Of a DNA stretch of 62,258 nt, positions 2,789 to 44,916 are shown piece by piece. The translations under genes and the position numbers were made by a program. Source of the DNA: Myxococcota bacterium (GTDB taxonomy: Bacteria > Myxococcota_A > UBA796 > CAJQPC01); the NCBI GenBank assembly GCA_023150845.1, contig JAKLKD010000008.1, positions 1-62,258 of the forward strand, in the 5' to 3' direction. Under the pieces are notes generated by a model. The model searched no databases and had not been told where the DNA came from. It worked only from the letters and a program-made list of their open reading frames with translations. The number at the start of each line of letters is the position of its first letter. Position 1 is the stretch's first letter.

Positions 2789-2862
2789 GTCCGCCCACCT
2801 TGAAGGTCACAATAAACGAGCGCGTTGCCCGAGGCAAGCGGCGCGGCGCGGGGGGATCCGGC

Positions 2863-5497: not shown

Positions 5498-5560
5498 CAG
5501 GCAGGATCATGGACGCTCACCCCGCCCCTCGCAAGCGCCTGAGCAAAAAACGGAGGTCGT

Positions 5561-8997: not shown

Positions 8998-9034
8998 TCT
9001 TCACGCTCCGATCCCCGCTCGCCGCAGAGGCCCC

Positions 9035-10333: not shown

Positions 10334-10734
10334 ACGAGGGCTCGTCGCGACCGAGGTGGCACGGGCGGTCCCCAAGGGACGCAGCCCGTCGAGCCGGAGA
10401 AGTCTTCGCCGTACAGGCACTCCATGGCGGCCTCGCTGCCTTCGCCGTGCTCGGCGTCGCAGGTGACCTTCAGGGCCTCGCAGCAGGACTGGACCTCCTC
10501 GGCGGGCAGGCCGACGCAGCCCGCCTGGGCGCTCGTGTCGACGACGCTCGTGTCCTTGACCTCGGTGTCGAGGGGCTGGGAGTCTTCGCTGTCCCCGCCG
10601 CTCGTGTCGATGACCACGGCGGAGGTGTCGTCGGCCTTCTGCTCGTCGCCGCCGACGCAGGCGGTCATCGCGAGCACGACGCTCGACGCGGCGAGCAGGG
10701 CCTTGTGGCGGAGGAGGGCGCGGGAGATGGACAT
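10330..10734 (-). CDS. Small Cys-containing lipoprotein next to ferritin-like gene
   Basis: 134 aa with the start at 10734, where AAAGGAG precedes the ATG; the longer frame upstream is antisense-like shadow of the ferritin-like gene. The signal ends in lipobox LAMTAC. A Ser/Asp/Thr-rich linker is followed by a compact tail with six cysteines (GCVGLP, SCCEALKVTCD, MECLYG, GCVPWGPPVPP). The gene is 28 bases downstream of the ferritin-like gene and probably in the same transcript. A second lipoprotein/ferritin-like pair lies at 13783-14933. Function unknown; the Cys-rich tail could bind a metal or be disulfide-bonded. Confidence 0.72.
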   Translation of the reverse strand: MSISRALLRHKALLAASSVVLAMTACVGGDEQKADDTSAVVIDTSGGDSEDSQPLDTEVKDTSVVDTSAQAGCVGLPAEEVQSCCEALKVTCDAEHGEGSEAAMECLYGEDFSGSTGCVPWGPPVPPRSRRALV

Positions 10735-10762
10735 GGTGGTTCGCTCCTTTGTGGGTTGAGGG

Positions 10763-26858: not shown

Positions 26859-29800
26859 TCAGGGCCTCGCTGGGACGATGTGCGCCCCGTTCTTTGAATA
26901 GTGGATGATCCCGTTCGTGGTCGGGACCCCCACGCCTGTGTTCGGATCGATGTATTCCCCTATCACTTTTTCAAAGTTCACGCGCTCTTTTGAGCCAGGC
27001 GCAGGAGGAGTTCCCGTAATGGTATCGCCCGTTCCCGCATGCTTGATTAGCTCGTGAGGATCTGCGGTGAGCTTGCTTCGGCCCTCGATGTAGTTATTAT
27101 GTGACTGCAAATGTTTACCCTGCTGCCCATCGTGAATTTTTACGCCGTCAATGCCTGATGAGGACTTACCAGTAAGGTCACCCGCCTCAGCATTCTCCGG
27201 CGTCGTCTCCGGGGCGTTCACCGTCTCATCCACCACCGGCGTGGTCTTGGGCGCCGTGTTGGTGCTCACCGCGGCGAAGTCCGGGTTGCTCGCCAGCACG
27301 TCGTTGTAGACGTCTTGGCTCGACTTGCCGGGGTTCGCCTTCACCTGGGCCTCAAACTCCTTGAGGAACCGGGCCTTCACGTCGTTCGACGCGCTGGAGC
27401 CGATCACGCCGTCCACGAGGGCCGCGCCCGTCGTGTCCCCGGCGTTGGTGAAGGTCTCCTTGAGCGGGTTGCCGCGGCCGGTGACGAGCTGGTCGGGGGT
27501 GCCCGCGAACACCTCGATCTGGCCGATCTGCTCGACCTCGATGCGGGGGGCCACGCCCTCCTGCTTGCCGCCGCCGGTGACGCCGAAGGGGTTGTCCACG
27601 TCGGTGGGCACCCACTCGGGGAACATGCCGTCAAACGCCGTCGGCTTGGTCACGCCGGCGTTCGCCATGGTCTCCGGCGTCGCGTTGAACCGGATGCCGC
27701 CCTGCTGGTAGTACTCGGGGTTCAGGGCCAAGGCGTCGATGAGCTCGGTGACGTTCGTGGCCACACCCTCGGACTGCAGACCCCACCAGGCCACGTCGTT
27801 GTAGCCCTCGACGAAGGCCTTGGGATCGAGGTTGGTGCGCAGGTCGTAGCTGGGGTTGTTCGCCAAGAAGCTGCCGAAGTTGTCCTTCGTCACGCCCGCG
27901 GCGGTGAGGTCGGCCTTGGCCTGGGGGGTGAGCATGTTGAACACCTTGTCGGTGCCATACAGTCGGCTCATGTTCCCGGCGTTCTGCAGGTCGGCGAGCG
28001 GGATGGCCTCACCCTGCTTGAGGTACTTGTTCTGGATCTGACCGTTCGCGTCCTTCACCGACGCGGCGTTCACCGTGTCGCGGATGAGCGTGAACATGTC
28101 CTTGCCCGCGTTCGCCGGGTTGGCGATCTGCGCGGCGAGCTCGTCCATGAACTGCATCTTGAGGGTGTCGGTGACGCCGGGGGCCTGCTCGTCGAGGATC
28201 TGGCGGACCTTCTCCGCGGCGGCCTCGTTGTTGGCCTTCACCTTGGGATCGGTGACCGTCGCGTTGGCGTCGTTGATCTGCTTGAGGACGTCGTTGGCCT
28301 TGGTCTGGAGCTCCGGCGGCGGCTGGCGGCGCGTCGTCGTGGGCGTCTCATCCCCCGTGGGCGTCGTCTTGGTCGTCGTCTCATCCACGACGGCGACCAC
28401 CGTCTCGTCGGTCTGTGTCGTCACCGTCTCATCAACCGCGGGCTTCGTCTCAGGCGTCGTCGTCGTCTCGTCCACGACGGGCTTCGTCTCAGGCGTCGTC
28501 GTCGTCTCGTCCACGACGGGCTTCGTCTCAGGCGTCGTCGTCGTCTCATCGACGATCGGCTTCGTCTCGGGCGTCGTCGTCGTCTCATCGACGATCGGCT
28601 TCGTCTCAGGCGTCGTGACCGTCTCGTCCACGGCGGGCGTGGTGTCGACCTTCGTCGTCGTCTCCGGCGTCGTGGTCGTCTCGGGGGTCGTCGTGGTCTC
28701 GGGCGTCGTGGTCGTCTCCGGAGTCGTCGTCTTCGTCTCGGCCACAGGCGTCACGGGCGTCTCGTCCACCTGGGGCGTGACGGGCTCGTTGACGCGGGGC
28801 TCCTGCACGGTCGGCTCGCGGACCGTGGGCTCCTGCACAGTCGGCGCGGGCGTCTCATCCACCTGCGGGTTGGGCGTAGTGGTCGGCGGGGGCGTGGTGT
28901 TGACGGTCGGGCGCAGGCCCTTGCCGAAGTCGGTGCCGACGGTCTGGAAGTGCTCGGTGATGCCCTTGATGCGCGGGTGCGTCGTCGCGCCGTTCATGAT
29001 GACGGAGCTGATGAGCGACTGTGCGAAGTTCTCCCAGGTGAGCTGGCCGGTGAGCGCGTTGATCGTTGTGTCCACGACCATATCGACGCCGACGGCGATG
29101 CCGAACTCCTTGAGCGCGCTGATGGCGACGGTGCCGCCCTTCGTCGCGACGTTCGAGGCGACGGCGCCGAGGCCCGCGCCGAGACCGCCGCCCAGCGCGC
29201 CGAGGAGCGTCGCCTGGAGCAGGCCCTCGGTGAGCGGGTTGCCGTCGAAGGCGTTCGTGATGAGTGTGGTCGCCGCGCCGGAGATGGCGCCGACGATGGC
29301 GCCGCCGACGACGGTGGCCAGCATGCCCGAGCCGAGCACACCGCCGACCGCGCCGATGACCAGGGGCCCGAGCACGAGCGCCACGACCACGATGACGGCG
29401 ATGATACAGACCCACTTGAGCACAGACTTCCAGCGGGGCTGCACCTTCGCCGCGGCCTTCTCGGCCTCTTCATGGATCTTGCCGTCCATGTCGGTGAAGG
29501 AGCCGCGCAGGCCGTCGCGCAGGGCGTTGGCGTTCGCCTCCATGCCCGTGGTGAGCTGCTGGGCGATGGCGCTGTAGCCCTGGGCGAGGCCATCGACGAT
29601 CTGCTGGTAGCCGGTCTTCGCGCTCTCGACGGTGGCGGCGACGCCCTGGTCGTGGCCCGAGGTGACCTGCTGGAAGGTCTGGGCGGCCTGCTGGTCGAGG
29701 CCCTGGAGCTGGCTGACGAGCTGCGCCGCGGTCTCCCCGGCGACCTGGGCCGCGCCCGCGCCCGTGGCGTTGAGGCCCGCGACCGCGCCCTGGGCGGACT

Positions 29801-31583
29801 GCATGAGCCCGGCGACGGCGCCGTCTACGCCCGTCCTGATGGAGTCCTTGGCGAAGTCTAAGGTCTGCTGGAAGGAGGCGCCCGCCTCACCCAAGCTCGC
29901 CGCGAACTCCTCGGGGCCGGGGATCGTGGGGGTGCCCAGGGCCTCGGAGACCCGAGCCAAGGCGGCGTCGAGGTCGGTCAAGGCCGAGGTGATGCCGCCG
30001 TTGATGCCGCTGATCGCCTGGGCGGCCTGGCCCTGAATCCCGGCCTGGGCCTGAGACGCGGCGCCGTCCAAAGCCGCCATCTGGCTCGACTGGTGGGCGT
30101 CGAGCGCGCTGTTGCCCGACGCCAAGGAGGTGTCGATGGCGGTCATGAGCCCGGCGGCGGACTGGTTCGCGGCCTGGGTGGACGCCGCGGCGGACTGGTC
30201 GAGCTGGGCGACCATGGTGTTGTAGTGGGTCTCGAGCTGGTCGCGGGCGGCCTTGGCGGCGGCGGCGACACCCTCAAGATCCCGGGCCATGTTCGCCTTG
30301 GCGGCGTCGGCCTGCTTGATCGCCTCGTCCTGGAGCCCCTTCTGGTAGGCCTTGCCGACCTCGCGGGCCGCGTTCGCCCGGGCCTCACACTTGTTGTCGG
30401 TGACCGGGCCGTCGAGGAAGCTGTCGTCGCGGTTGATCTTCTGGCTGAGGTAGCCGCTGGCCTTGCCCTCGGCGCGGGCCAGGGCCTCGCCGCCGACCTG
30501 CACGCCGACGGCGCGGTACTTCTGGTCGGCGGAGGCGTAGGCGGCCTCGATGGCGGCGCGCTGGGCGGCTTCAGCGGCGTCGACCTGGCCCACGGCGGCG
30601 GACTTGTCGCCGAGCAGGGTGGCTTTCGCGCCTTCAGTAGACGCGGCGATGCTCGCCAAGGCGGCGCTGAGCTGGCCGGAGACCGAGGCCCGGCTGGACT
30701 CGGCCTGGGCGGCGATCTGGCCGCGGGCGGCGGAAACGGCGGCGGACACCGTGGCCTTCTGGGTCTCGGCGGCGGCGGCGACCTGGGCGCTGGCCTCCCC
30801 GGCGGCGCCCTGGATGCGCCCGGTGACCTCGTTCGCCATGCCCGCGAGGCCCGCGGAGTCGGCCTGGCGCGCGGAGAGGAAGCCAGCGGCGGCCTCAGCG
30901 TTCTGGGCGCGCATCTCGGCGAGGATGCCGTAGACCTGCTCGATGGCCTCGGGGGGGAGCTTGCTGGCGTCGATGCCGTTGGCCTCAAGGGAGATGTCTC
31001 CATAGGAGACATTGTCAACGGAGGCGACGGCGTCGGCGGGGTTCTCGCTGGCGCCGACGTTGAGGCCGGGGCCGACCGGCGCGGGCACGTCTACGACGGG
31101 CGTCTCGGGGACGGCCTCGGTGAGCCCGCTGGCGTCCTCTTCGCCGCCCTCGACCTCCGGGGCCTCCTCCTCACCGGGGCCCTCGTCCTCGGTGATCGCG
31201 CCGATCTCTTCAGCGCTCTTGTCGCCGTCGGCGGCGTTCTTGGTCTCCTCTTCAGTGCCTTCGGTCTGCGGGGTCTGGCTCTTGACGTCGGGCTCCATCT
31301 TGGTCTCGTCGCCCGGCGGAGGGCCCTCGCCCTCGCCGTCCCCGCCGCCGCCCGCAGCGTCGGTCTTGGTCGGATCAACGGTGTCGAGGCCGCCCTCGCC
31401 CTCCTCCTCACCCGCGCCGAGCTCAGGGCCTACGCCCTCGGGGCCGATGGGCCCACGAAGCTGCTCCTGCAGGAAGGAGTTGTCCTGCTCAAGCCCGCCG
31501 GGCAGGAGGTCGTAGTCCTGGTGGTGCTGCTGATCGTTGGCCTGAACGATCGGCGCCGCGCGGCGCCGAGAAGGTGAGGGCAT
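26859..31583 (-). CDS. Polymorphic toxin with Ntox50-type C-terminal domain
   Basis: 1574 aa. Order of parts: a Glu/Gly-rich acidic N-terminal region (to about 165); a long Ala/Gln-rich helical region, probably coiled coil, to about 710; a glycine-rich hydrophobic region at about 720-840 (WVCIIAVIVVVALVLG and Ala/Gly helices) of the pretoxin or pore kind; a Thr/Pro/Glu repeat linker at about 900-1080; a middle domain; and the last 85 residues as toxin tip. The tip shows GKHLQSHNNYIEGRSKL, KVIGEYIDPNTG and NGIIHYSKNGAHIVPARP, the hallmarks of polymorphic toxin type 50, a predicted RNase. AAGGAG precedes the ATG. No classical signal peptide; export route unknown. Confidence 0.85.
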   Translation of the reverse strand: MPSPSRRRAAPIVQANDQQHHQDYDLLPGGLEQDNSFLQEQLRGPIGPEGVGPELGAGEEEGEGGLDTVDPTKTDAAGGGGDGEGEGPPPGDETKMEPDVKSQTPQTEGTEEETKNAADGDKSAEEIGAITEDEGPGEEEAPEVEGGEEDASGLTEAVPETPVVDVPAPVGPGLNVGASENPADAVASVDNVSYGDISLEANGIDASKLPPEAIEQVYGILAEMRAQNAEAAAGFLSARQADSAGLAGMANEVTGRIQGAAGEASAQVAAAAETQKATVSAAVSAARGQIAAQAESSRASVSGQLSAALASIAASTEGAKATLLGDKSAAVGQVDAAEAAQRAAIEAAYASADQKYRAVGVQVGGEALARAEGKASGYLSQKINRDDSFLDGPVTDNKCEARANAAREVGKAYQKGLQDEAIKQADAAKANMARDLEGVAAAAKAARDQLETHYNTMVAQLDQSAAASTQAANQSAAGLMTAIDTSLASGNSALDAHQSSQMAALDGAASQAQAGIQGQAAQAISGINGGITSALTDLDAALARVSEALGTPTIPGPEEFAASLGEAGASFQQTLDFAKDSIRTGVDGAVAGLMQSAQGAVAGLNATGAGAAQVAGETAAQLVSQLQGLDQQAAQTFQQVTSGHDQGVAATVESAKTGYQQIVDGLAQGYSAIAQQLTTGMEANANALRDGLRGSFTDMDGKIHEEAEKAAAKVQPRWKSVLKWVCIIAVIVVVALVLGPLVIGAVGGVLGSGMLATVVGGAIVGAISGAATTLITNAFDGNPLTEGLLQATLLGALGGGLGAGLGAVASNVATKGGTVAISALKEFGIAVGVDMVVDTTINALTGQLTWENFAQSLISSVIMNGATTHPRIKGITEHFQTVGTDFGKGLRPTVNTTPPPTTTPNPQVDETPAPTVQEPTVREPTVQEPRVNEPVTPQVDETPVTPVAETKTTTPETTTTPETTTTPETTTTPETTTKVDTTPAVDETVTTPETKPIVDETTTTPETKPIVDETTTTPETKPVVDETTTTPETKPVVDETTTTPETKPAVDETVTTQTDETVVAVVDETTTKTTPTGDETPTTTRRQPPPELQTKANDVLKQINDANATVTDPKVKANNEAAAEKVRQILDEQAPGVTDTLKMQFMDELAAQIANPANAGKDMFTLIRDTVNAASVKDANGQIQNKYLKQGEAIPLADLQNAGNMSRLYGTDKVFNMLTPQAKADLTAAGVTKDNFGSFLANNPSYDLRTNLDPKAFVEGYNDVAWWGLQSEGVATNVTELIDALALNPEYYQQGGIRFNATPETMANAGVTKPTAFDGMFPEWVPTDVDNPFGVTGGGKQEGVAPRIEVEQIGQIEVFAGTPDQLVTGRGNPLKETFTNAGDTTGAALVDGVIGSSASNDVKARFLKEFEAQVKANPGKSSQDVYNDVLASNPDFAAVSTNTAPKTTPVVDETVNAPETTPENAEAGDLTGKSSSGIDGVKIHDGQQGKHLQSHNNYIEGRSKLTADPHELIKHAGTGDTITGTPPAPGSKERVNFEKVIGEYIDPNTGVGVPTTNGIIHYSKNGAHIVPARP
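28441..28635. repeat. Five tandem 39-bp units in the toxin linker
   Basis: Units begin at 28441, 28480, 28519, 28558 and 28597. Each encodes 13 residues of the type TTPETKPxVDETT, with x as Val, Ile or Ala. Two units are almost identical at DNA level, so copy number may change by slippage without breaking the frame. Confidence 0.9.
28654..28731. repeat. About four tandem 18-bp units in the toxin linker
   Basis: Units encode the six-residue repeat TTTTPE. Together with the 39-bp units this makes a long extended Thr/Pro linker between the hydrophobic region and the C-terminal part of the toxin. Confidence 0.85.
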
Positions 31584-31759: not shown

Positions 31760-34700
31760 TCAGACGCCAGCCATCCAGCTCCCGAGGGTCTCTTCGGCCT
31801 CGGTGACGCGGCGCACGGCCTCGGGCACGCCGAGGCGCTCCCACTGGGTGCGCGCGAGGGTGTACAGGGCGCGGGCCTTGTCCGGGCGGCGGAGCTTCTG
31901 GGCGCGCTCGGCGGCGAGCTCCATCGGGAAGGCGATGTCCTGCTCGGCGATCTCGCTCGTCTCGACGGCGCGGTGTACGCGGCGGTAGAGGCTCTCCCAC
32001 TCGGCGTCGTCGGGGTGCATCGCCGCCAGGCGAAAGCCGTCGAGGAAGAAGCGTAAGGCGTGGCCGCCGCGGCGCTCGACGTCGGGGGCGATGTGCTCGA
32101 AGTGGCGCTGGGCCTCCTCGAACCGATCACGCCCCAAGAGCACCTGCCCGAGGTTGAGCTGGGGCACGAGCACCTTCGAGGAGCTGAGGCGACTGTAGAG
32201 GGAGATCGCCCGGCGGTAGGTCAGCTCGGCAAGATCGAGGCGGTTCTGGTAGCGGTGCAGCTCGCCGAGGTTGTTGAGGCACTCGGCCTCACCGAGCAGG
32301 TAGCCGACCCGGCGGAAGGAGCTGAGCGCGTCCTGGTAGAAGGTCTCGGCGACGTCGTACCGCTGGCGAGACACGGCGAGGCTGCCCAGGTCGAGGCGCA
32401 CGCGGCCGACGGTGCGCCAGCTCCCCACGGCCTCGGCCATGGCCGTCGCCTCGTGGTAGTACTCCTCGGCCTCCTCCAGGCGGCCCATCGCGCGGGCGAC
32501 GCGGCCGAGCTGTTTGGTGCAGCGGGCGACGCCGTCGGTGTCGTTGCGGTCGCGCAGGAGCTCCCGGGCGTCGGTGAAAGCCGACCAGGCGTCCTCCCAG
32601 GCCCCGGTGTCCAAGAGCGCGCGGCCCCGGAAGTAGAGGCCCCAGGGCAGGTGAACCCGCCAGCCGTAACGCCGGGCGTACTCGACGATCTTCTGGCTGT
32701 AACGAGTGATCTCTTGGATGAAGCCCCGCTCGATGCCGACCTCGGCGCGGGCGAGCCAGAGCAGGCCCCAGCGGGGATCGTCGTCGGCGGCGCCGACGGA
32801 GCGCAGGGCGTCCTCCCAGAGCTCCATGAGCCCGGCGGCCTCGTCGGGGCGGCCGGCGCGGAGGTGGGCCTCGACGGCCTCCCGCACGGGCTCGATGGCC
32901 TGCTCGGGCTCCCCGGCGCGCATGCGCAGCACGGCGACCCGGGCGCGGTCTTGCTCGCGGCCCCGGGACTGGAGCATCGCGGCGCAGGCGCGGCGCCAGC
33001 GGGCGGCGCGGTGGGCGCGCTCGGCGTCGAGCTCCAGGCCCTCCCGCAGCATGGCGTGCACGAAGGCGAAGCCGCCAGCCCGGCGCTCGATGACCGCCTC
33101 CTCCAAGAGCACATCCTCAAGGCGCGGGGGCAGCTCAAGCCCGGCGAAGGCGCAGGCCTCTTGCCAGTCCAGGCGCTCGACCTGGATGTCCCCCATCACC
33201 GCCGCGACCTCCAAGGCGAGGCGCGCGGTCTCCCCGCGGCGGGCGTGGAGGCGGTCCATCCGGGCGCTCCACCGGGCGTGGATGTGGGCGGGGAGCGCGT
33301 CCGCGGCGCCGTGGCGGAGGTGGTAACCGCCCTCTCCGGCGCGGAGGTAGTCACGTTTGGCCCACTCCCCGACGAGCTCGATGGCGAAGGCCGGGTTGCC
33401 CGCGGAGCGCCGCGCGACCTCGGCGGAGAGCGCGTCCTCCAGGTTCAGGAGGCTGTGGACCAGCTCGAAGCGCACGTCGACGGGCAAGGGGCCGACGCGC
33501 AGCTCCTCGATGAGCCCCCGGACACGCAGCTCCTCGACGGCGCGGGCGGCGTCGGGGGACTCGGCGAGATCCTCGTCGTTGGCGGTCATGACGATGACGA
33601 CGCCGCAGGGGCCCGAGACGGAGCCCTCCAGGAGCGGCCGGATGAGCGCGAGGCTCGCCGCGCCCCACTGCACCTCGTCCAGGGCGATCACGACGGGGCG
33701 CACGACGCTGAGGTGCACCGTGGCGGTGAGCAAGGCGTGGTCGTGGAAGGCCGTGCGCTCGCCGTTGAGCGCCTCGGTGAGCAGGGCCGCGCTGAGCTTG
33801 CCCTCAAGCTCCTGGGCGCGGATCCACTCCGCGAGGCGGCGGCGCTGCTCGACGTCCGAGAGCGCCTGCACCCGGAGCCGCCGGGCCAAGGCGTCGGCGA
33901 AGGAGCGTGTGTCGCCCTGCTTGTGCTCCACCCGGAGCAACGAGGCCTGCCCCAAGGTGTAGGCCCGCTCGGCGAGCCAGCCCGCGAGGCGGCTCTTGCC
34001 GAAGCCCGAGGGCCCGCTCAGGAGCAGGCAGCGCACCCCGCCTTGGGCGACGACGGTGAGCAAGGAGGACCAGAGGCTGTCGCGCTCGGTCTCCCGGCCC
34101 AAGAGCGGGATGGGGCGCAGGCCGAAGAGGCCGAGGCCGACGGTGCGCACGAGCGGCGGGGCGCCACGGGGGCCGCGGCGGCGCCAGTCCACCGGGGCCG
34201 GCGGCACGACGATGGGCATGGGCTCGATGGCCACACCTTGGGGCGCCGAGGCGTGCTGGGGCCCGGGGCCGCGCTCGACCTCGTCGAGGAAGAAGGTGTG
34301 GGCCTCGGTCTCGCTGCCGATGAGGCTCTGCACGTCGTCCAGGGGCGGCACGAAGGTCGAGAAGTCGGGGTCGCCGAGCTGGGTGAGGGCCCAGGCGGCG
34401 TCGGCGGCGCAGGTGAAGCGCTCCTCGGCACGTTTGCGCAGGAGCCGGGAGATCCAGCGCTCCAGGCCCGCGGGCACGGCCATACGCGGCGCGAGGGGCG
34501 GCGGGTCGAGGAGCCAGTGCGCCCGGCGCAGGGCCTCCAGGCTGTCGCCTTGGAAGGGCGGGCGCCCGGAGACGAGGGTGACGGCGAGGCAGCCCAAGGC
34601 GTAGAGGTCGGTCCAGGGGCCGTGCTGGCGCAGATCGGAGGAGAACTGCTCCGGGGCCATGTACTCCGGCGTGCCCGCGGCGCGGCCCTGGATGGGCCCC

Positions 34701-37582
34701 TCACGCAAGGCGTGGGCGATGCCGAAGTCGGAGAGCTTGACGCCGGAGCTGGGGTCGTGGGCGCGCTCCAAGAGCACGTTCGCGGGCTTCACGTCGCGGT
34801 GGGTGACGCCCCGGGCGTGGGCGTGGGCCAAGGCGTCGAGCAGGCTCAGGAGCACCGAGCGGCAGGCGGACCACTCCAGGCGCCCGCAGACCGGGGAGAG
34901 CGAGCCGCCGCGGCAGTACTCCATCGCGAGGTAGGGGCTCCCGGCGACGAGGCGGCCCTCGGACATACGCTCGGCGATCTCGCTCACCCGGCCGTTCTCC
35001 AAGACGAGCACGATGTTCGGGTGGTCGAGGCTCGCGACGGAGCGCACCTCTTGGCGGAAGCTCTCCAGGACCTCGGGGCGGCGGGCGCCCTCCGCGGTCA
35101 AGACCTTCACGGCGATCTGCACGCCCTCTTGGCGGTGCCAGCCGGTCCACACCGCGCCGGAGCCGCCCTCGCCGCGCTGGCGCTCAAGGTCGAAGGGGCC
35201 GAGCGGGATCGGCGAGCCCTCCCGGGCCAGCTCGATGAGGCGGTCGTTCACCCGACGCAGGCCCTCGTCATCGGCGAGGCCGATAAACTGTGCGGCGGCG
35301 ATCTCCAGCGAGCGCGCGGCCCGGGAGAGCTCCCGCACGTCGCGGACGGCGGCGCGGCACCACTCCCCGGAGAGCTCGGCGGCCCAGGCGAGGTCGCGGT
35401 CGATGAGCCGGGTGCCCTCCAGGAGCGCCGTGGCCCGCTGGTAGACCGACTCCCACTGCTCCCACTCCCGCTCGGCGGCGCAGCAGGGCAAGAGGAAGGT
35501 CAGCACGCAGCACAAGACGGCCCGGCGCACGCGCTCCTCAGCCTCGGCGGCGACCTGCTCAAAGAGCTCCTTCGCCTGCCGGGTGAGCCCGCGGCCCAAG
35601 AGCACGAGGCCGAGGTTCATCCGAGGCAGGAGCGCGTCGCCGGAGCCCACCTCGTCGAGCACGGTGATCGCCCGGCGGTACTGCTGCTCGGCGGTGCGCA
35701 GCTCGCCGCGCTGGCGGGAGATCTCGGCCAAGGCGTTGAGGAAGTGGGCCTCGCCGATGCGGTTGCCCATGCGCTCCATGAGCTCGAGGCCCTTGTTGAG
35801 CGCCAGCTCGGCCTCGCCGAGCTGCCCCTGGCTCAAGAAGATCGCGCCACGCCCGAGCAGGCTCGTCGCCTGGACAAAACGGTGCCCGACGCTCGCCGCG
35901 GCGGCCTCGGCGCTGGAGTAGACGGCGAGCGCCTCCTCGTTCTGGCCCCGGGAGCGCAGGCACTGGGCGAGGCGCCAGGCCGTGGACGAGATGATGTGCG
36001 GCTCATTCAGCGCGCTGCCGATCTCTTGGACCTCGCGGAGGATCTCCTCCATCTTGGCGCTGTTGCCCCGCCGCTCGGCGATGGTGGCCATGTCGAGGAG
36101 CAAGAACGCACGGAGCTGCTCCGCGCCGATGTCCAAGGCGATGTTCACGCCGCGCTGGAACATCGCCTCGGCCCGGTCGAGCTCGGCGAGCTCCATGTAG
36201 ATCTGGGCGAGGCTCTTGAGGGTCTGGACGAGGCCGCGGTCCTCGGGGCGGCCGCTGGCGATCTCAAGCTGCAGGGCGCGCTCGGCGAGGCGCAGGCCCT
36301 CGTCCAGGCGGCTCCGGAGCCGGGCGAGGCGGGAGCGCTGGTTGAGCAGCTCGACGCGCTGGGGGTGGTCCTCGGCGAGCCCGATGCGGTCGGCGAGGCG
36401 CTCCTGGGCGAGGATCAGGCGCTCCCAGGAGCTGTACGCCCCGCCGATCCACCGGCGCTGGGCGGCCTCGGCCAAGGTCGCCATCGCGTCTTCGGGCTGG
36501 TCGCTCGCCAAGAGGTGCCAGGCGAGGCGCTCGGCGGCCAAAGAGGCGCCGTAGCGGGCGCGCAGGCCGTCGGCGCAGGCGGCGTGGTGGCTCCGGGCGC
36601 GCCCCGCGTTGGCCGCTCGGGCCAACATGCGGCGCCAGACGCGCTCGGTGACGAAGGCCCAGCCGCCCCGCCAAGGCTCGATGATGCCCGCCTGCTGGAG
36701 CTTCGTGAGGAGCTGCTGGCCGCTCGGCGTCACCCGCGGTCGGAGCGCGACCCACTCGGCCCCGGCGCAGCGCATGCCCAAGAAGGCGAGGCGCTCGACG
36801 AGGCGCTGGTCCTCCTCGACGGCGCGGTCCATGGCCGCGTCGAGGGCCTGGATGAGCGGGCCCCGGGTGACCGTGGGGCGCGCGCTCAGCGCGAGCTCCG
36901 CCGCGCCGCCCACGGGGCGAAGCAGCTCCCGGACCTGCTCCAGGTTGAGCGGCGGGCGGCTGATCTCGTACTCGTCGGGGCCCTCGGCGTCGGTGCGCAG
37001 GGTGAGCACGACGAGGATCGGCGTCGGCCGCTCGCTGTGGGACTGGATGAGCTGGACGACGAGGCTCACCGCGGCCTCGCTCCACTGCACGTCCTCGAGC
37101 ACCAAAACGACCGGACGCTCGGCGGCGATCTTGCGCAAGAGCCGAACATGCAAGGTGTTTCGTTCGAGGCGCGGGACCGGCTGGTGACTTTCTTTGGGCC
37201 AGATCGTCGCCGCGAGATCCACCGCCTCGTCAGCGGCGCAGATGTTCAAGGCGACGCAACGTTCGGTGAGGGCGGCGGCCAGGGCGTCGCTGGACTCCGG
37301 CGCCGGGACGCCGAGGTGATCGGCCAGGGCCGAGCCGAGGCCGTCCGAGATGGACGGCGTGACGCTGTGGTGGGCCAGGATGAACGCCGAGCGCTCCTGC
37401 CGAGCCACGAATCCTTGGAGCCAGCGCACCACCAAGGTCTTGCCGCTGCCCTCGACGCCGTGGATGACCACGACACGAGTCCGCCCGTCGAGCGCCACTC
37501 GGTTGTTGGCGCTCAAAAGCTCGCTGCACGCAGCGTCGAGCCCTTCGGGGAAGGGGAGGCGGTTGGGGGGGCCGCGGGTCAT
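31760..37582 (-). CDS. Giant NTPase-TPR-kinase-NTPase-TPR signalling protein (catalytically complete)
   Basis: 1940 aa with the ATG at 37582. The order is: STAND-like NTPase with P-loop GVEGSGKT (42-49) and Walker B VLEDVQW; TPR-like helices from about 300 to 780; Hanks Ser/Thr kinase at about 785-1055 with AVKVL, HRDVKPAN (near 930), LSDFGIA and MAPEQ; second NTPase with SGPSGFGKSRL (near 1190) and Walker B IALDEVQWG; then TPR-like repeats to the end. It resembles PknK-type kinases but carries two NTPase and two TPR blocks. It lies 47 bases downstream of a degenerate paralogue and 176 bases upstream of the polymorphic toxin, all on one strand. Soluble; signal and targets unknown. Confidence 0.9.
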   Translation of the reverse strand: MTRGPPNRLPFPEGLDAACSELLSANNRVALDGRTRVVVIHGVEGSGKTLVVRWLQGFVARQERSAFILAHHSVTPSISDGLGSALADHLGVPAPESSDALAAALTERCVALNICAADEAVDLAATIWPKESHQPVPRLERNTLHVRLLRKIAAERPVVLVLEDVQWSEAAVSLVVQLIQSHSERPTPILVVLTLRTDAEGPDEYEISRPPLNLEQVRELLRPVGGAAELALSARPTVTRGPLIQALDAAMDRAVEEDQRLVERLAFLGMRCAGAEWVALRPRVTPSGQQLLTKLQQAGIIEPWRGGWAFVTERVWRRMLARAANAGRARSHHAACADGLRARYGASLAAERLAWHLLASDQPEDAMATLAEAAQRRWIGGAYSSWERLILAQERLADRIGLAEDHPQRVELLNQRSRLARLRSRLDEGLRLAERALQLEIASGRPEDRGLVQTLKSLAQIYMELAELDRAEAMFQRGVNIALDIGAEQLRAFLLLDMATIAERRGNSAKMEEILREVQEIGSALNEPHIISSTAWRLAQCLRSRGQNEEALAVYSSAEAAAASVGHRFVQATSLLGRGAIFLSQGQLGEAELALNKGLELMERMGNRIGEAHFLNALAEISRQRGELRTAEQQYRRAITVLDEVGSGDALLPRMNLGLVLLGRGLTRQAKELFEQVAAEAEERVRRAVLCCVLTFLLPCCAAEREWEQWESVYQRATALLEGTRLIDRDLAWAAELSGEWCRAAVRDVRELSRAARSLEIAAAQFIGLADDEGLRRVNDRLIELAREGSPIPLGPFDLERQRGEGGSGAVWTGWHRQEGVQIAVKVLTAEGARRPEVLESFRQEVRSVASLDHPNIVLVLENGRVSEIAERMSEGRLVAGSPYLAMEYCRGGSLSPVCGRLEWSACRSVLLSLLDALAHAHARGVTHRDVKPANVLLERAHDPSSGVKLSDFGIAHALREGPIQGRAAGTPEYMAPEQFSSDLRQHGPWTDLYALGCLAVTLVSGRPPFQGDSLEALRRAHWLLDPPPLAPRMAVPAGLERWISRLLRKRAEERFTCAADAAWALTQLGDPDFSTFVPPLDDVQSLIGSETEAHTFFLDEVERGPGPQHASAPQGVAIEPMPIVVPPAPVDWRRRGPRGAPPLVRTVGLGLFGLRPIPLLGRETERDSLWSSLLTVVAQGGVRCLLLSGPSGFGKSRLAGWLAERAYTLGQASLLRVEHKQGDTRSFADALARRLRVQALSDVEQRRRLAEWIRAQELEGKLSAALLTEALNGERTAFHDHALLTATVHLSVVRPVVIALDEVQWGAASLALIRPLLEGSVSGPCGVVIVMTANDEDLAESPDAARAVEELRVRGLIEELRVGPLPVDVRFELVHSLLNLEDALSAEVARRSAGNPAFAIELVGEWAKRDYLRAGEGGYHLRHGAADALPAHIHARWSARMDRLHARRGETARLALEVAAVMGDIQVERLDWQEACAFAGLELPPRLEDVLLEEAVIERRAGGFAFVHAMLREGLELDAERAHRAARWRRACAAMLQSRGREQDRARVAVLRMRAGEPEQAIEPVREAVEAHLRAGRPDEAAGLMELWEDALRSVGAADDDPRWGLLWLARAEVGIERGFIQEITRYSQKIVEYARRYGWRVHLPWGLYFRGRALLDTGAWEDAWSAFTDARELLRDRNDTDGVARCTKQLGRVARAMGRLEEAEEYYHEATAMAEAVGSWRTVGRVRLDLGSLAVSRQRYDVAETFYQDALSSFRRVGYLLGEAECLNNLGELHRYQNRLDLAELTYRRAISLYSRLSSSKVLVPQLNLGQVLLGRDRFEEAQRHFEHIAPDVERRGGHALRFFLDGFRLAAMHPDDAEWESLYRRVHRAVETSEIAEQDIAFPMELAAERAQKLRRPDKARALYTLARTQWERLGVPEAVRRVTEAEETLGSWMAGV

Positions 37583-37629
37583 GCGCCGCCTATCAAAGCA
37601 TGACCGGCGGGGGGGTGGCAAGGGCGCCC

Positions 37630-40600
37630 CTAAGCCGACGGCCGCAGGAGGCCGAGGGCGTCCAGCCAGTCACCGAGCTCGGGGTCTGCGCGTTCGCGAA
37701 GCCGCGCCAGGAGCGGCCCACCCTTGACCCGAGGCCCTCTCCCGAGGCTCCGGGTGAGCCGGGCCCAGGCCGCGCGCCGCGGCAGGCTCCCGGGCGCCGC
37801 CAAGGCGGCGTTCAGCACGCAGAGCTGGAGCTGATCGACGGCCTCCCAGGGCCGCCAGCCGCCCCGGGCGGCGGCGTCGAGGTCGAGGCGGGCGAGCTCG
37901 TCCTGGCCGAGCAGGGCGAGCACCCAGGCCTTGAGGAGCAGGGCGCGGCGCTCAGCGAGGCTGTCGTCGACGCCACGGAGCACGTCGACGGCCTCCTGCA
38001 GCGTCGTGATGGCCTCGCCGTACTGGCCGCCCAGCGCCAGCACCTCGCCGCGCTGGAGGAGCGCCCTCCCCTGCAGCCCGGGCAGGCCCGCGGCGACGGC
38101 GGCCCGGCAGACGTCTACGACGGCGTCGTGGCCCTCCTCCAGGCGCCCGAGGGCCGTCAGCGACCGGGCGACGGCGAGGCCGCTCTCGACGATGAGCCGC
38201 TCCTTCTTGGACTCCTCCGCGACGCCCAGAGCGCGCTGGGCCGAGGCCAAGGCTCCGGCGTGCTCCCCGGAGGAGAGCTGGGCGTCCACCCAGCTCAGGG
38301 CGACCTCGACGATGTCGACGGGGTTGTGGGCGCCTTCAGCGAGCTCGCGGGCGCGGCTGAGCAGCTCCAGGGCCTCCATGAAGCGCCGCCGCCGCAGCAA
38401 GACCACGCCCATGAGCCGCAGCGCCGTCGGCATCTGCTCCGACCACTCGTGGCGGTAGCAGTGCATGAGCAGGCGCCGGGCCGGGGAGGCCAAGGTGTCC
38501 ACCTCCTGCCGCGCCTCGGCGAGCCGCGCCCGGAGCATGAGCATTCCGCCCCACTCCGGGCCGCTGTCCGAGACGCCCATCGACGTGAGCGCCCCCAGAT
38601 ACAGCGAGAGCGCAGACTCCGCCGACTGCAGAGACCCCCCTCGGATCGCCCCGTGAATAAATCGTAAGAGATACGGGCAGGCCAGCGAGGGCTGCCCCGC
38701 CCGCAGGAGGTGGGTCGCCGCGCGCAGGCCGTCCTCACGCCGGGCCAAGAGCGCCGCCGCGCAGGCCTCGTGGAGCGCACGGCTGTCTCGCGCGGCCTCC
38801 CGCAGGAGCGCCTCCCGCAGCCCCGGGTGGGTGAAGGCCCAGCCCTGGGACGCGCTCTCGGCGAGCTGGTCCGTGAAGAGGCGCTGGGTGAGGGCCTCGG
38901 GGATGAGCACCCCGAGCCGCACGCAGGCGTCACGCCAGAGCTCGTCGTCCACGTCGGGGCCGAGGAGCGCGGCGAGCTGCAGCGCCACCCGCGCCCCGAA
39001 GGGCAGCCCCGCGACGAGGCGGTCCACACGGCCCGACCAGACCGAGAGGTGGTCGTCGGGCAGGCCCACCTCGGCCCCCGGCCCGAGGCTCAGCCCCGCC
39101 GCCGTCCAGACCTGCGGGGTGCGGCGCACACACTCCCGCAGCAGCTCCAGCATAAAAGCCGGGTGCCCCGCGGCGCGCTGGTTGAGCTGCTCCAAGAGCG
39201 CCGGCTCGACGGCGACGACGCTCTGGGCGAGCTCCGCGCAGGCCGCGGGCTCCAGGGGCCGCAGCACGACCTCGATGAGCCAGCCCAGGCGCTCCAGGCG
39301 CTCCAAAGCCACGGCCTCCCGGGGCCGCTCGGCGAGGAGGTCGGTCTGGGTGGTGATCACGAACAGGAGCGGCTTGGGGGACCGCATCGTCATCAGGAGC
39401 GTGTCTTCGAGGGTCAGGAGGCTCTGGAGCCCCCACTCCGCGGCGCTGATCACGACGATGACCGGGCCCCGGGTCGCGAGGCCGATGAGCGCGTCGCGGG
39501 CGGCGTCGCGGGCGCGGCGGGGCAGAATCGACGCCCGACCGGGCACCTCGACGCTCTCCTCCAGGCCCGCGGCGATGGACTCCAGGGCCCCCTCACGGTG
39601 CCCCTCGGCGCCGATCAGGCGCTCCACCCGGGCCCGTAGCGCGACGCCGCCGTGCTCGCTGTCGACGCCGACGAGGGCCCGCAGCGCCTCCATGAGCGCC
39701 GCCGGGCGCACCGGGCTGTGATCGACCCGCAGCGCCCAGGCCCCCGTGCGCCGGGAGAGCTCGGCGAGCAGCTCTTGCACGAGCCGGGCCTTGCCCACCC
39801 CCGCCGAGCCCGAGATGAGCAGCGCCGAGGTGTCGCGCCCGCGGAGCACGGCCTCGGCCCGGCTGAGGGTCAAGGCGAGCTCCTCGTCGCGGCCGACGAA
39901 GCGCGGCAGGCGCTCCAAGGCGAGGCCCGGCCCAAACCAGCGCTCCCAGGGGGAGGGCCCCCGCGGCGGCGGGTCGGGCGGGCCCCCGTCGGGCGCGGCG
40001 AGGAGGGCCGCCCAGGCCGAGGGGTGCTCACCGGCCTCCAGGGCCGCGCGCCAGCGCTCCCAGCCCTCCGTCGGCGGCGGACCCCAAGCGCGCATCATCT
40101 CGCCGAGCGCGCGCAGCTCGTCTTGTTGAGCGTTCGGGCCCTTGGCGCGGCTCGGGCAGAGGTCAAACCAGCGCACGAGGTCGGGCTCACCCTCGACGAG
40201 GGCGAGGTGCAGGCGACAGGACTTCACCGCGCCGAACACGCCCCCGGCCCCATGAATCGCCGCCAGCGCCGAGAGCGCGCCCCGAGCCGCCCGCGCCCAG
40301 CGCGTCGGCTCCAGGGGGGCGTAGCGGAATAACTGACCCTGGGTCATTTCTACCGCGGTCCAGGGCGCGCCCAGCGGCAGGCTGCGCCCAGGGAGGTCGG
40401 CGGTCATCTCCGCGGCGGCGCGGCTCACCACCCCGGCGTCGAGCAAGGTGACGAGGTTCGGGTGCAGGGTCTTGAGCGCCTTGGCGCGGTCCTCCCGCCA
40501 GGCGCGCCAGCGCGCCGCGTTCGTTTGGGTGGGCGAGGCGACGATCAGCGCGACCCCGGTGCGACGGTCTCGGGCGCCCCAGCCGGTGACGCCGTCCTCG

Positions 40601-42975
40601 GAGCCGACGGAGCCGGTGAGGTCGAGGCCCCCGAGCGGCACCGGCATGCCCGCCGCCGCGGCCTCGCGCAGCCGGGCGCCGAGGGCGCGCACCCCGTCGG
40701 CGTCTTTGAGCGCGACGCGCTGCTCCAGGGCGATCTCCCACAACCTCGGCGCCATCGCCCGCAGCCGGGGGAGCTCTTGGGCGTAGGCGCGGTCCCCGGC
40801 GAGCTGCGCGGTGTAGGCGATGTCGGGCTCGGCGAGGCGGGACTGGGCGAGGAGCGCCGTCGCCCGCTCGTACTGCGCGTCGACGGCGTCGGCGTCCCGC
40901 TCAGAGACGGCCATCGCCATGAGCAGCATATGCGCCGCCGCCAACACCCCGGCCCGGCCTCGGCTCGCGGCCTGGGCGCGCACCCCCTCGACGAGGGGCC
41001 TCGCCCGCACCATGTCGCCGAGGTCTACATAGAGCAGCGCCAGGTTGAGCCGGGGCGTGATGGTCTCCGGCGACCGGATGGACTCCATCACCCGCAGCGC
41101 CCGGAGGTATGCCTGCTCGGCCTGCTCGACGTCCCCGCTCGCGCGCAGGATGTCGCCCAGGGTGTTGTGGCAGAGCGCCAGGCCGTCCCGGCGGCCCACC
41201 AGCACCATCAACGCCTCGGCGCTGCGCACGAGGCGCTTCGCCTCGTCGAGCTGCCCCAGGCCCCAGCGCGCCACGGCCTCTCCGCGCAGGCTCACGGCGA
41301 GGCCGTAACGGTAGGAGGCCTCCCGGGCGATTCGGGCGGAGGCCGAGAACGCCTGGAGCGCCTCCTTCACCCGCCCTTGCTGCCGCCGGGCCCGGCCCAA
41401 CAAGGACAAGGTCAAGGCGTGGCGGCGTGGTCGCCCGAGGTGGACCTCGTGGGTGAGGGCCTCCTCAAAGAGCGCCTCGGAGACGGACTCTTGGCCCCTT
41501 CGCCCGGCGACGGCGGCGCGGTCGTGCAGGCAGTCGGCCACCCCCGCGGCGCTGCCCAGCGCCCGAAAACGCTCCTCGGCGCTGCGCAGGAGCGACTCGG
41601 CCCGATCCAGGGCGCTGGCCTCATAGGCGACCTGCCCCAAGGCGCGCAGGGCGTGGGCGAGGAGCTCGGGATCCTCCGCGCGGCCCGCGCAGGCCACGGC
41701 GGTCTCCCCGAGGCGCAGGGCCTCGTCGAGGCGACCCCGCTGCCGCAGGAGCCGCACGCGCTCCAGCTTCACGGCGAGGCGGTGGGGGTCGTTGTCGTGG
41801 AGCCCCAAGATGTCCACGAGCTGCCCCGCCCGGGCGACCAAGGCGCTGGCGACGTCGAGGTGCCCCGCCTCTCGGGCCATCGCGATCGCCGCGGTGAGGG
41901 CGTGCAGGGCGCCGACCTCGTCCTTGGCGTTGAGCAGGTGCAGGGCCACCCGGCGGGCGTCCAGGACCGGGCCGTAGCGCTCGACCAACATCGCCGCGAC
42001 CTCGGCGCTGCGGCGCTCCATGCTGCCCTCGTCGCGGAGCACCTGGAGCAGCGCCTCACGCGCCTCCGGCCAGCGGAGCGTCCAGGTCCCCTCGTGGGGG
42101 CTGATGTCGTCGGCGGCGAGCAGCGCGCCGAGGCCGGAGTGCTCCGGGAGCGGGACCACGCCCCCGGAGATGAGCGCCCACTCCTGGGCCGTCACGCTCT
42201 GATCGAGGACCATGAAGCGGTCGAAGGACGCCCGCTCCTCGTCGTTGAGGGCCGCCCGGACGCTGAGCGCCCGGCGAATGGCGTCCTCACGCAGCGCGGG
42301 GTTCGTCTCGGGCAAGGTCACCCGGCGCACCACCGCGCCGGCCGCGGTGAGGCGCTCGTGCACCTCCTGCATGCTCAGCTCACCCTCGACGCTCAGGAGC
42401 CGCTCGACGCCGGGGGAGACCACCAAGGGCGCGAACCACATGACGAGCTCAAGGCCCTGGGGCAGGCCCTCGTCGTGGCTCCAATCCTCCAGGAGCTGCA
42501 CGACCTCCTGGGCTTGCTCCGCCCGGCCCACAAAGAGCAGCAGCCGCGACTCCGCGGCGAAGGCCGAGAGCAGGCGCCTAGAGATCGCCGCGCGCTCCTC
42601 ACCTTCGGGGGCGAAGCTCCCCGGCATCGGCCAGAACGCGGCCGCGAGCGCCTCGGCCTCCCCCTCCCCTGTGAGCCCCAAGGCCCCCAGCCGCTCCCGC
42701 AGGGCCTCCACCAGGGGCTCGCCCCGGGCGCCCTCGACCCCGAGCGCGCGGCAGAAGGTCCCGTACAGGCCGTCCCCCGGCGTGGGGATCGCCGAGAAAC
42801 GCACGACGAGCGCACGAATGGCGGCGCTCTCGCTCAGCGCCTCCGCGAGCTGCGCACGCGACCAGCAGGAGAAGGCGTAGATCGTGTCCGCCCGCACCAG
42901 CGTCACCCGGAGCGCCGCCCCAGCGTTGGGCTTGGGGGGCTGGTGGTCCGGGGTCGTGGCGCCGGATTCGCTCAC
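37630..42975 (-). CDS. Giant pseudokinase paralogue (NTPase-like, TPR, pseudokinase, NTPase, TPR)
   Basis: 1781 aa, GTG start with AGGTGAG upstream. It follows the same plan as the next gene but with catalytic sites lost. The N-terminal NTPase region reads RVTLVRADTIYAFSC where a P-loop should be. The kinase region (about 785-960) has HGAGGVFGAVKSCRLHL in place of HRDxKxxN, and no DFG. The second NTPase keeps GSAGVGKA (near 1060), but its Walker B reads VVISAAEWG, without the Asp. TPR-like helices fill the rest. I read it as a pseudoenzyme scaffold or regulator of the active paralogue downstream, in one operon. It is not a decayed gene: the frame is intact over 5.3 kb. Confidence 0.87.
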   Translation of the reverse strand: MSESGATTPDHQPPKPNAGAALRVTLVRADTIYAFSCWSRAQLAEALSESAAIRALVVRFSAIPTPGDGLYGTFCRALGVEGARGEPLVEALRERLGALGLTGEGEAEALAAAFWPMPGSFAPEGEERAAISRRLLSAFAAESRLLLFVGRAEQAQEVVQLLEDWSHDEGLPQGLELVMWFAPLVVSPGVERLLSVEGELSMQEVHERLTAAGAVVRRVTLPETNPALREDAIRRALSVRAALNDEERASFDRFMVLDQSVTAQEWALISGGVVPLPEHSGLGALLAADDISPHEGTWTLRWPEAREALLQVLRDEGSMERRSAEVAAMLVERYGPVLDARRVALHLLNAKDEVGALHALTAAIAMAREAGHLDVASALVARAGQLVDILGLHDNDPHRLAVKLERVRLLRQRGRLDEALRLGETAVACAGRAEDPELLAHALRALGQVAYEASALDRAESLLRSAEERFRALGSAAGVADCLHDRAAVAGRRGQESVSEALFEEALTHEVHLGRPRRHALTLSLLGRARRQQGRVKEALQAFSASARIAREASYRYGLAVSLRGEAVARWGLGQLDEAKRLVRSAEALMVLVGRRDGLALCHNTLGDILRASGDVEQAEQAYLRALRVMESIRSPETITPRLNLALLYVDLGDMVRARPLVEGVRAQAASRGRAGVLAAAHMLLMAMAVSERDADAVDAQYERATALLAQSRLAEPDIAYTAQLAGDRAYAQELPRLRAMAPRLWEIALEQRVALKDADGVRALGARLREAAAAGMPVPLGGLDLTGSVGSEDGVTGWGARDRRTGVALIVASPTQTNAARWRAWREDRAKALKTLHPNLVTLLDAGVVSRAAAEMTADLPGRSLPLGAPWTAVEMTQGQLFRYAPLEPTRWARAARGALSALAAIHGAGGVFGAVKSCRLHLALVEGEPDLVRWFDLCPSRAKGPNAQQDELRALGEMMRAWGPPPTEGWERWRAALEAGEHPSAWAALLAAPDGGPPDPPPRGPSPWERWFGPGLALERLPRFVGRDEELALTLSRAEAVLRGRDTSALLISGSAGVGKARLVQELLAELSRRTGAWALRVDHSPVRPAALMEALRALVGVDSEHGGVALRARVERLIGAEGHREGALESIAAGLEESVEVPGRASILPRRARDAARDALIGLATRGPVIVVISAAEWGLQSLLTLEDTLLMTMRSPKPLLFVITTQTDLLAERPREAVALERLERLGWLIEVVLRPLEPAACAELAQSVVAVEPALLEQLNQRAAGHPAFMLELLRECVRRTPQVWTAAGLSLGPGAEVGLPDDHLSVWSGRVDRLVAGLPFGARVALQLAALLGPDVDDELWRDACVRLGVLIPEALTQRLFTDQLAESASQGWAFTHPGLREALLREAARDSRALHEACAAALLARREDGLRAATHLLRAGQPSLACPYLLRFIHGAIRGGSLQSAESALSLYLGALTSMGVSDSGPEWGGMLMLRARLAEARQEVDTLASPARRLLMHCYRHEWSEQMPTALRLMGVVLLRRRRFMEALELLSRARELAEGAHNPVDIVEVALSWVDAQLSSGEHAGALASAQRALGVAEESKKERLIVESGLAVARSLTALGRLEEGHDAVVDVCRAAVAAGLPGLQGRALLQRGEVLALGGQYGEAITTLQEAVDVLRGVDDSLAERRALLLKAWVLALLGQDELARLDLDAAARGGWRPWEAVDQLQLCVLNAALAAPGSLPRRAAWARLTRSLGRGPRVKGGPLLARLRERADPELGDWLDALGLLRPSA

Positions 42976-43545: not shown

Positions 43546-44916
43546 ATGATGACCCCGACCCGCACCTTCGCCCTGCTCGCGGCGCTCCTCGCCGTCGGCT
43601 GCAAGACCCCCGAGACCAACGTCGAGACCGGCCTGGAGCCCCCAGACGAGGAGCCCATCGACGCCGACGGCGACGGCACCCCCGCTGAAGAGGACTGCGA
43701 CGACGAAGACGCCGCGGTGAACCCCGCCGCTGAGGAGACCTGCGACGGACGCGACAACAACTGCGACGGCGCCGTCGATGAGGGCACGCTCACGACCGTC
43801 TACACCGACGCCGACGGCGACACCTACGGCGACGACAGCACCGCCAGCGAGGCCTGCGCCCCGACCGACGGCCAGGCGCTCGTCGGCGGGGACTGCGACG
43901 ACGCCGACCCGGCCTACAACCCCGGGGCGTCCGAGGACGACTGCGCCGACCCCAACGACTACAACTGCGACGGCTCCACGGGCTACGCCGACGCCGACGC
44001 CGACGGCTACGCCGCCTGTGAGGACTGCGACGACGCCGACCCCGCCGTGAGCCCCGCCGCCACCGAGGTCTGCGACGACCGCGACAATAACTGCGACAAC
44101 CTCACGGACGAGAACGTCACCGAGACCTGGTGGCAAGACAAGGACGGCGACCTCTACGGCGACCCCGACTTCGCCTACATCGGCTGCGCCCAGCCCGAGG
44201 GCTACACCGACAACGTCGCCGACTGCGACGACGATGAGAGCGGCGTGAACCCCGACGCCGATGAGCTCTGCGACGGGATCGACAACGACTGCGATGGGGT
44301 CATCGACGGGCCCGACGCCCTCGACCCCTCGACCTACTACACCGACGCCGACGGCGACGGCCACGGCGACGCGACGGCGACGGTCACGGGCTGTGAGGCC
44401 CCGAGCGGCGCCGTCACCCTGAGCGACGACTGCGACGACGGAGACGGCGCGGTCTACCCCGGCGCCGCTGAAGCATGTGACAACGCAGACAACGACTGCG
44501 ACAGCGAGGCGGACGAGGAGGTCTGCGACTGCAGCTTCACCAGCTACGGCGGCCACGAGTACCTGTTCTGCGTCGAGAGCCTCGCCTGGGCCGACGCCTA
44601 CGCGGCCTGCGTCGATTACGGCTACGACCTCGTCGCCATCAACGACGCCGCCGAGGACGCCTGGCTCTGGTCAACGGCCTACGCCCTCACCGACGCCGAC
44701 TGGTGGATCGGCCTCAACGACCACACGAGCGAGGGCACCTTCGTCTGGACCAACGGCGAGGCCACGAGCTACACCGGCTGGGCGGGCGGTGAGCCCAACA
44801 ACAGCTACCACGACGGCAGCCCCGAGAACTGCGTGCACATCGGCTGGTACGCCCCGACGAGCCAGTGGAACGACTACGGCTGCGCCGCGGGGAACTACTT
44901 CATCTGTGAGGGCTGA
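43546..44916 (+). CDS. MopE-like calcium-repeat lipoprotein with C-type lectin domain
   Basis: 456 aa. Signal with lipobox LAVGC. Residues of about 38-325 hold repeated metal-binding units of the pattern DxDGD, DCDDxD, NPxAxE, CDGxDNxCDG, as in MopE and many Myxococcota surface proteins; they bind calcium. The last 125 residues form a C-type lectin-like domain: WADAYAACVDYGYDLVAIND, WWIGLND, GWAGGEPNN, WNDYGC and ICEG, with the paired cysteines in place. Likely outer-surface, calcium-dependent glycan or protein binding. It is the second gene of an operon with the small lipoprotein. Confidence 0.9.
   Translation: MMTPTRTFALLAALLAVGCKTPETNVETGLEPPDEEPIDADGDGTPAEEDCDDEDAAVNPAAEETCDGRDNNCDGAVDEGTLTTVYTDADGDTYGDDSTASEACAPTDGQALVGGDCDDADPAYNPGASEDDCADPNDYNCDGSTGYADADADGYAACEDCDDADPAVSPAATEVCDDRDNNCDNLTDENVTETWWQDKDGDLYGDPDFAYIGCAQPEGYTDNVADCDDDESGVNPDADELCDGIDNDCDGVIDGPDALDPSTYYTDADGDGHGDATATVTGCEAPSGAVTLSDDCDDGDGAVYPGAAEACDNADNDCDSEADEEVCDCSFTSYGGHEYLFCVESLAWADAYAACVDYGYDLVAINDAAEDAWLWSTAYALTDADWWIGLNDHTSEGTFVWTNGEATSYTGWAGGEPNNSYHDGSPENCVHIGWYAPTSQWNDYGCAAGNYFICEG

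Follow-up and report, generated by a model that had tools for sequence, protein, structure and literature searches.

A tandem pair of giant STAND-TPR-kinase genes in a Myxococcota genus, one intact by motif and one with its catalytic centres lost

Two giant genes lie as neighbours, head to tail, on the minus strand of the window, by which we mean the whole 62,258-nt stretch of Myxococcota DNA analysed here, taken from a genome (G000) assembled in 444 contigs. The upstream gene, B (37630–42975, 1781 aa), encodes a putative pseudoenzyme, and the downstream gene, A (31760–37621, up to 1953 aa), an enzyme with intact motifs. Both proteins follow the module order STAND-NTPase/TPR/protein kinase/STAND-NTPase/TPR and align collinearly in two blocks, the first covering the first NTPase, the TPR region and the kinase N-lobe (31% over B residues 56–923, E = 1.9e-72) and the second B residues 1003–1549; the two adjacent frames and the common architecture described in an earlier note on this DNA were thus both recovered. 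Gene A probably starts at the ATG at 37582 and not at the TTG at 37621, since this ATG is kept in a congeneric genome, G001. Assuming that start, the two genes, on the same strand, are separated by ~47 bp, and no terminator-like site was seen at their junction. Directly 5′ of the ATG lies the arrangement TTGCCA-N18-TTTGATAG (window 37582–37630), also kept in G001, which could be a promoter giving A an almost leaderless transcript; a consensus promoter scan did not flag it. At 75% GC an open frame by itself is weak evidence for a gene, as the antisense strand of A carries one of 1847 aa. We therefore rely for B on its codon-position GC (0.79/0.52/0.94), its dN/dS and its freedom from indels relative to the congener (detailed below), which together argue for a real, selected gene.

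The pair is flanked by genes of other kinds. Beyond A on the minus strand lies a 1574-aa protein (26859–31583) composed of a helical body, a membrane-like stretch rich in glycine, repeats of the TTTPETKP type and, at the C-terminus, an Ntox50 domain (Pfam); part of its body is found at three further loci (L121, L122 and L123) with differing C-terminal ends, as in polymorphic toxins. On the plus strand, 43546–44916 and 57279–58238 encode MopE-type metal-binding repeat proteins, one of which also has a C-type lectin domain; the former gene is divergent from B, and the stretch collinear with G001 extends into it.

Gene A retains every motif that was checked (all module coordinates in A and B are on the minus strand). 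Its first STAND NTPase (residues 20–390, 36452–37564; Pfam and motifs) has the P-loop GVEGSGKT and the Walker B sequence VLVLEDVQW, and is followed by a Pfam-recognized TPR region (residues 391–790, 35252–36451). The protein kinase domain (residues 800–1075, 34397–35224; Pfam Pkinase at 812–1071, E = 7e-41) displays GEGGSG, AVK, HRDVKPAN, DFG and APE, and thereby the Gly-rich loop, VAIK Lys, αC Glu, HRD Asp, DFG Asp and APE of a Hanks-type Ser/Thr kinase, the closest solved kinases being PknA and PknB. A second STAND NTPase with a winged-helix region (residues 1166–1560, 32942–34126; Pfam and motifs), bearing GPSGFGKS and VIALDEVQW, leads into the final TPR region (residues 1561–1953, 31763–32941; Pfam). 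Pfam places AAA_16 in two stretches of A alongside many TPRs, and both modules combine a GK[ST] P-loop, a Walker B acid and a TPR sensor, as in MalT-like STANDs. The earlier description of the downstream protein as catalytically complete is thus borne out at the level of motifs. In its own genome, A gives 74 tblastn matches (E <= 0.001), mostly through the kinase domain, which corresponds to a large set of Ser/Thr kinases.

In B, Pfam recognizes only the C-terminal AAA_16 (residues 1025–1206, E = 4e-12) and TPRs; neither a Pkinase nor an N-terminal AAA match was returned. The first module opens with a STAND NTPase-like region (residues ~20–340, 41956–42918; motifs and Foldseek) in which the P-loop is deleted and Walker B is replaced by LLLFVGRAEQA, without its acid; a TPR superhelix follows (residues 341–770, 40666–41955; Pfam TPR_12/TPR_MalT, model pLDDT mostly >90). 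The candidate pseudokinase (residues 775–1000, 39976–40653), delimited by hhalign, alignment and a predicted N-lobe, keeps its N-lobe, has its catalytic loop replaced and its C-lobe shortened: the Gly-loop reads GSEDGVTG, the VAIK Lys is Ala, HRD has become FGA, APE is absent and ~77 kinase residues of A are unmatched in the alignment. Homology of the N-lobe and αE region to protein kinases is nevertheless recovered by profile (hhalign probability 97%, E = 1.1e-10, against the kinase domains of 26 relatives). The second STAND NTPase and the winged-helix region after it (residues 1021–1420, 38716–39915; AAA_16, motifs and a Foldseek match to 6mfv) have the P-loop GSAGVGKA, in which the Ser/Thr is lost (the congener has GKN for GKA), and the Walker B motif, VIVVISAAEW, lacks the acid. 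A second TPR superhelix, delimited by comparison of the model with MalT domain III, completes the protein (residues 1421–1781, 37633–38715).

By its residues, B therefore qualifies neither as a Hanks-type kinase nor, by P-loop and Walker B, as a STAND NTPase. Motifs and alignment agree with the earlier note that the first P-loop, the kinase HRD and the second Walker B acid have been lost from an intact frame. That note had, however, also listed DFG among the losses, and here the Asp is probably still present, as FDLC, a motif that, like GKA/GKN, is found in both B orthologues. All three centres are indeed broken, but the extent of the damage had been understated: the Ser/Thr of the second P-loop, the first Walker B and the ~77 kinase residues are gone as well.

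AlphaFold2 models of B (residues 1–780, mean pLDDT 81; residues 755–1781, mean pLDDT 77) both had the STAND protein PH0952 (6mfv) as their best Foldseek match (TMt 0.57 and 0.47, respectively), giving moderate support to an NTPase-winged helix-TPR fold. The modelled second TPR domain superposes on MalT domain III (1hz4) with Z 23.0, rmsd 4.3 and 338 aligned residues, although many other TPR chains reach similar or higher Z values. The pseudokinase was modelled within the 755–1781 segment, where N-lobe strands and helix C appear with moderate confidence; the assignment of a kinase fold draws on these predicted strands and on hhalign, and the structure lists for this model (the best 50 Foldseek matches and the VIA list) were filled with chains of the STAND, TPR and ORC/Cdc6 types, and kinases were absent from them.

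The pair is conserved in G001 (JAKLKE01, Myxococcota MAG.430), a metagenome-assembled genome and, apart from G000, the sole member of the genus examined, with the gene order kept and the same losses in B. The two genomes are collinear over 13 kb at 83% DNA identity, a stretch that spans both genes, and the B orthologues show zero indels across 1,781 residues. Pairwise NG86 comparison of the window with G001 (60 bootstraps, domain limits chosen by us) gave a dN/dS of 0.29 for B (bootstrap 0.25–0.33), with 0.27 for the pseudokinase (bootstrap 0.14–0.39), 0.44 for the first NTPase and 0.21 for the first TPR region, compared to 0.15 for A as a whole and 0.05 for its kinase. Upon this dN/dS and the absence of indels, we conclude that B is kept by purifying selection, which is looser than on A; by dN (0.161 versus 0.058) the B protein is changing ~3 times faster. 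As for the expectation of side-by-side conservation, the pair does persist in the one other congeneric genome, but this amounts to two genomes and a giant form confined to one genus, and no test across Myxococcota. No stand-alone orthologue of A or B was found in the genomes searched (58 related, 71 of the class and 377 of the phylum), so that the outcome feared in the earlier note, either gene occurring alone as often as paired, did not appear in what is a tiny sample of two genomes.

Kinase-STAND-TPR proteins as such are abundant in the class, where 54 of 67 genomes match the kinase-NTPase2 part of A at E <= 1e-60, and a kinase directly followed by AAA_16 and TPRs on one chain is present in A by Pfam and in B by homology. 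What sets A and B apart is the ~770–790 residues of STAND-TPR that precede the kinase, in place of the N-terminal kinase typical of the family: the kinase starts by residue 120 in 46 of the 59 frames with both kinase and NTPase matches (A and its congener counted). Among the matches listed from 58 related genomes, the N-terminal module of B occurs together with a kinase region in G000 and G001 only. The same two genomes gave the only full-length matches to a profile of this module (71 genomes of the class searched at E <= 1e-15 and 377 of the phylum at E <= 1e-40), and in a wider contig scan G001 was the sole full-length match among those listed. Within the collections searched, the extra N-terminal NTPase-TPR module is thus found in this genus only (2/2 genomes). 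Further apparent double-STAND giants that surfaced at five loci (L103, L104, L109, L078 and L106) have Pfam-blank, low-complexity Ala/Gly/Arg-rich extensions and were treated as spurious.

Alignment of the relatives allowed the losses in B to be placed against the family. Kinase rows were dropped when the match spanned <200 residues, and NTPase rows when the span was <370 residues or started before residue 10; the 12 relatives without a kinase match all run off the fetched stretch, and a very degenerate kinase might escape the phmmer step used. Nearly all of the 55 kinase rows (58 minus A0, B0 and B1) retain the Lys, the HxD Asp and the DFG Asp. The two exceptions are L004, from the window's own genome, with HRN for HRD and DMG for DFG, and a row with no residue at the Lys column, where the locus is cut. 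Among 56 NTPase rows, 42 have both the P-loop Lys and the Walker B acid and 14 lack the Lys only, with Thr, Arg, Cys or Leu instead and the acid kept; none lacks the acid. Loss of the P-loop Lys hence recurs in the family, and the combined loss seen in B is unique in this set.

Other degenerate or clustered members of the family were also observed. The genus has a second degenerate kinase-STAND-TPR protein (L124:9360–12278 on G000:C224 and L125:1762–5130 on G001:C96; 86% identity between the genomes), with HRN, DMG or DLG and the P-loop GPAGVGLS; in the stretches examined, no active kinase-STAND-TPR gene lies directly beside it. At L108, two adjacent kinase-STAND-TPR genes (2762–6436 and 7815–11354, 1.4 kb gap) differ in their P-loops, GASGSGKS versus GTEGSGTS, with no kinase motif loss in either, which recalls A and B in milder form. 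Kinase-STAND-TPR genes also lie near one another, ~1.4–5 kb apart, on three further contigs (G045 C19, G067 C189 and G017 C258); their kinases show no loss of Lys, HRD or DFG, and no shared neighbour gene was apparent in the frame maps.

The gene duplication proposed in the earlier note gained support from phylogeny. When 69 STAND-TPR modules were placed in one tree, module 1 of A came out as sister to module 1 of B (SH-aLRT 98), in the midst of those from ordinary kinase-STAND-TPR proteins, and both proteins share the same TPR-kinase junction. The second modules separate in this tree, that of B sitting on a very long branch with the long-branch relative L004. In a quick tree built without the first modules and without 7 rows, of which 6 were long-branched and 1 was a duplicate, they come near each other, split by L094. 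We considered an independent origin of the second halves, as suggested by the first tree, and did not retain it: constraining the second modules together gave a log-likelihood 5.2 higher (p-AU 0.62), so that joint grouping is neither rejected nor proven, on a set of 20 of the 69 rows picked after the trees had been seen. We infer that A and B are fused, tandem-duplicated paralogues of the Myxococcota kinase-STAND-TPR proteins. A STAND-TPR module would have been fused in front of a kinase-STAND-TPR gene, the fused gene would then have been duplicated in tandem, and B would have lost all of its catalytic centres before the two species split.

We hypothesize that A is a Ser/Thr kinase under the control of its STAND switches and that B serves A as a nucleotide-independent scaffold or allosteric subunit, a reading to which we give about an even chance. 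In STANDs with TPR sensors, ligand opens an ADP-bound core, ATP replaces ADP and the protomers multimerise, as described in PMC6468293. Transferred from MalT/PH0952 by homology, this switch would make the two STAND NTPase-TPR modules of A ligand-operated controls of an active Ser/Thr kinase: the TPR superhelix would sense ligand, the NTPase would swap ADP for ATP and the protomers would assemble, whereupon each kinase could phosphorylate the others as well as a target downstream. B would bind A through the homologous modules and hold, nucleate or allosterically tune its assembly, in the way that Fam20A, a pseudoenzyme paralogue, acts on Fam20C. Judging from its motifs, a nucleotide cycle is not expected in B, least of all in the first module, and both TPR sensors and the folds appear to be kept; a nucleotide-independent subunit is the most likely role for B because its folds are retained under purifying selection with all nucleotide chemistry lost. 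A partnership is favoured by the juxtaposition of an intact A with a triple-loss B, by the persistence of the pair in G001, by the 47-bp gap and by the PH0952-like folds of B. Against it stand the restriction of the pair to two genomes of one genus, the ~3-fold faster change of B, the failure of the second modules to group in the full tree and the lone degenerate protein of L124/L125, which, having no active gene beside it, indicates that a pseudo-form need not adjoin an active partner. A stronger version, in which A and B would be obligate partners in a hetero-oligomeric STAND-kinase machine, with B sensing ligand and templating assembly and A supplying all of the chemistry, strikes us as unlikely; if true, the bacterial locus would encode an inflammasome-like kinase platform in which one subunit is a dedicated pseudoenzyme.

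The main rival is that B is an independent sensor or scaffold that no longer works with A, its degenerate domains binding other proteins, and that adjacency is only a leftover of tandem duplication. Such duplication would by itself account for adjacency in two close genomes, neighbouring myxobacterial kinase genes have been described as a sign of it (PMC11032199), and the genus also conserves a lone degenerate relative (86% identity). However, with DNA identity down to 83%, order, strand and short spacing are still preserved, and the searches turned up neither gene's orthologue without the other; we regard independence as possible but clearly less probable than the scaffold or allosteric role. 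Still more doubtful is a conflict module (defence or contact-dependent competition) in which the STAND sensors, one of them inactive, control an effector such as the Ntox50 protein. The start of that protein is 176 bp downstream of A, in the same orientation, G001 has its N-terminal end at the corresponding position, and published conflict systems feature inactive STANDs and inactive effector enzymes (PMC7159879). Nevertheless, among the matches listed, PADLOC reported the kinase and TPR domains of A, one weak TPR match in B and none in the Ntox50 protein; no kinase or STAND gene lies in the fetched 7–9 kb around relatives of the Ntox50 body in two other genomes; and no MoxR or vWA gene was found among the neighbouring frames scanned with Pfam (30 entries, one frame entered twice, covering part of the window's frames). 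NCBIfam gave nothing above its curated cut-off. That B is a decaying, pseudogene-like copy, open by chance in a 75% GC genome, would fit the disappearance of every catalytic centre and the commonness of long chance frames such as that antisense to A, but is highly improbable given a dN/dS whose bootstrap upper bound is 0.33, 1,781 codons free of indels and the presence of all major losses in both species. Least probable of all is catalysis of a new kind in B, for instance another transferase activity as in the pseudokinase SelO (PMC10211241), to which the possible DFG Asp and the P-loop Lys of the second NTPase, FDLC and GKA/GKN in both orthologues, would lend themselves, but for which the VAIK Lys, the HRD Asp, the activation segment and both Walker B acids are missing.

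Bacterial pseudokinases have been counted and seldom explained; in M. xanthus, 11 were reported among 99 kinases (PMC6791715). Since B adjoins an intact paralogue, has lost three centres together and is under selection, the role of a dead STAND-kinase becomes testable with two genes. The claim that no described system has this pair stood in part: none was found in the open-access literature searched, but the architecture is less isolated than supposed, as kinase-STAND-TPR proteins and partial pseudo-forms recur in the class. The family is widespread, and the A/B pair is known from this genus only, in the collections searched. The closest counterparts are the Myxococcota kinase-AAA_16/STAND-TPR proteins (~1,100–1,250 aa), which the second half of A resembles (best matches mostly 38–46% identical) and of whose architecture B carries a degenerate version; A and B differ from them by the additional STAND-TPR module before the kinase. 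M. tuberculosis PknK is a similar kinase-STAND-TPR case. The iSTAND ternary conflict systems likewise use inactive STAND NTPases (PMC7159879), as in B, but have adjacent MoxR and vWA genes, of which none was seen among the A/B neighbouring frames tested. Fam20C and Fam20A offer the analogy of one active and one inactive paralogue (PMC10211241); that pair, however, is eukaryotic and a shown heterodimer, whereas a complex of A and B is a proposal and three centres are lost at once in B. Finally, A resembles MalT/PH0952 in its NTPase motifs and B in the predicted fold of both modules and the likeness of its second TPR domain to MalT domain III, but A and B have two STAND modules per chain with a kinase between them, and B lacks the nucleotide site needed for the STAND switch. 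Work on A and B would also show whether a STAND assembly can hold subunits that do not bind nucleotide.
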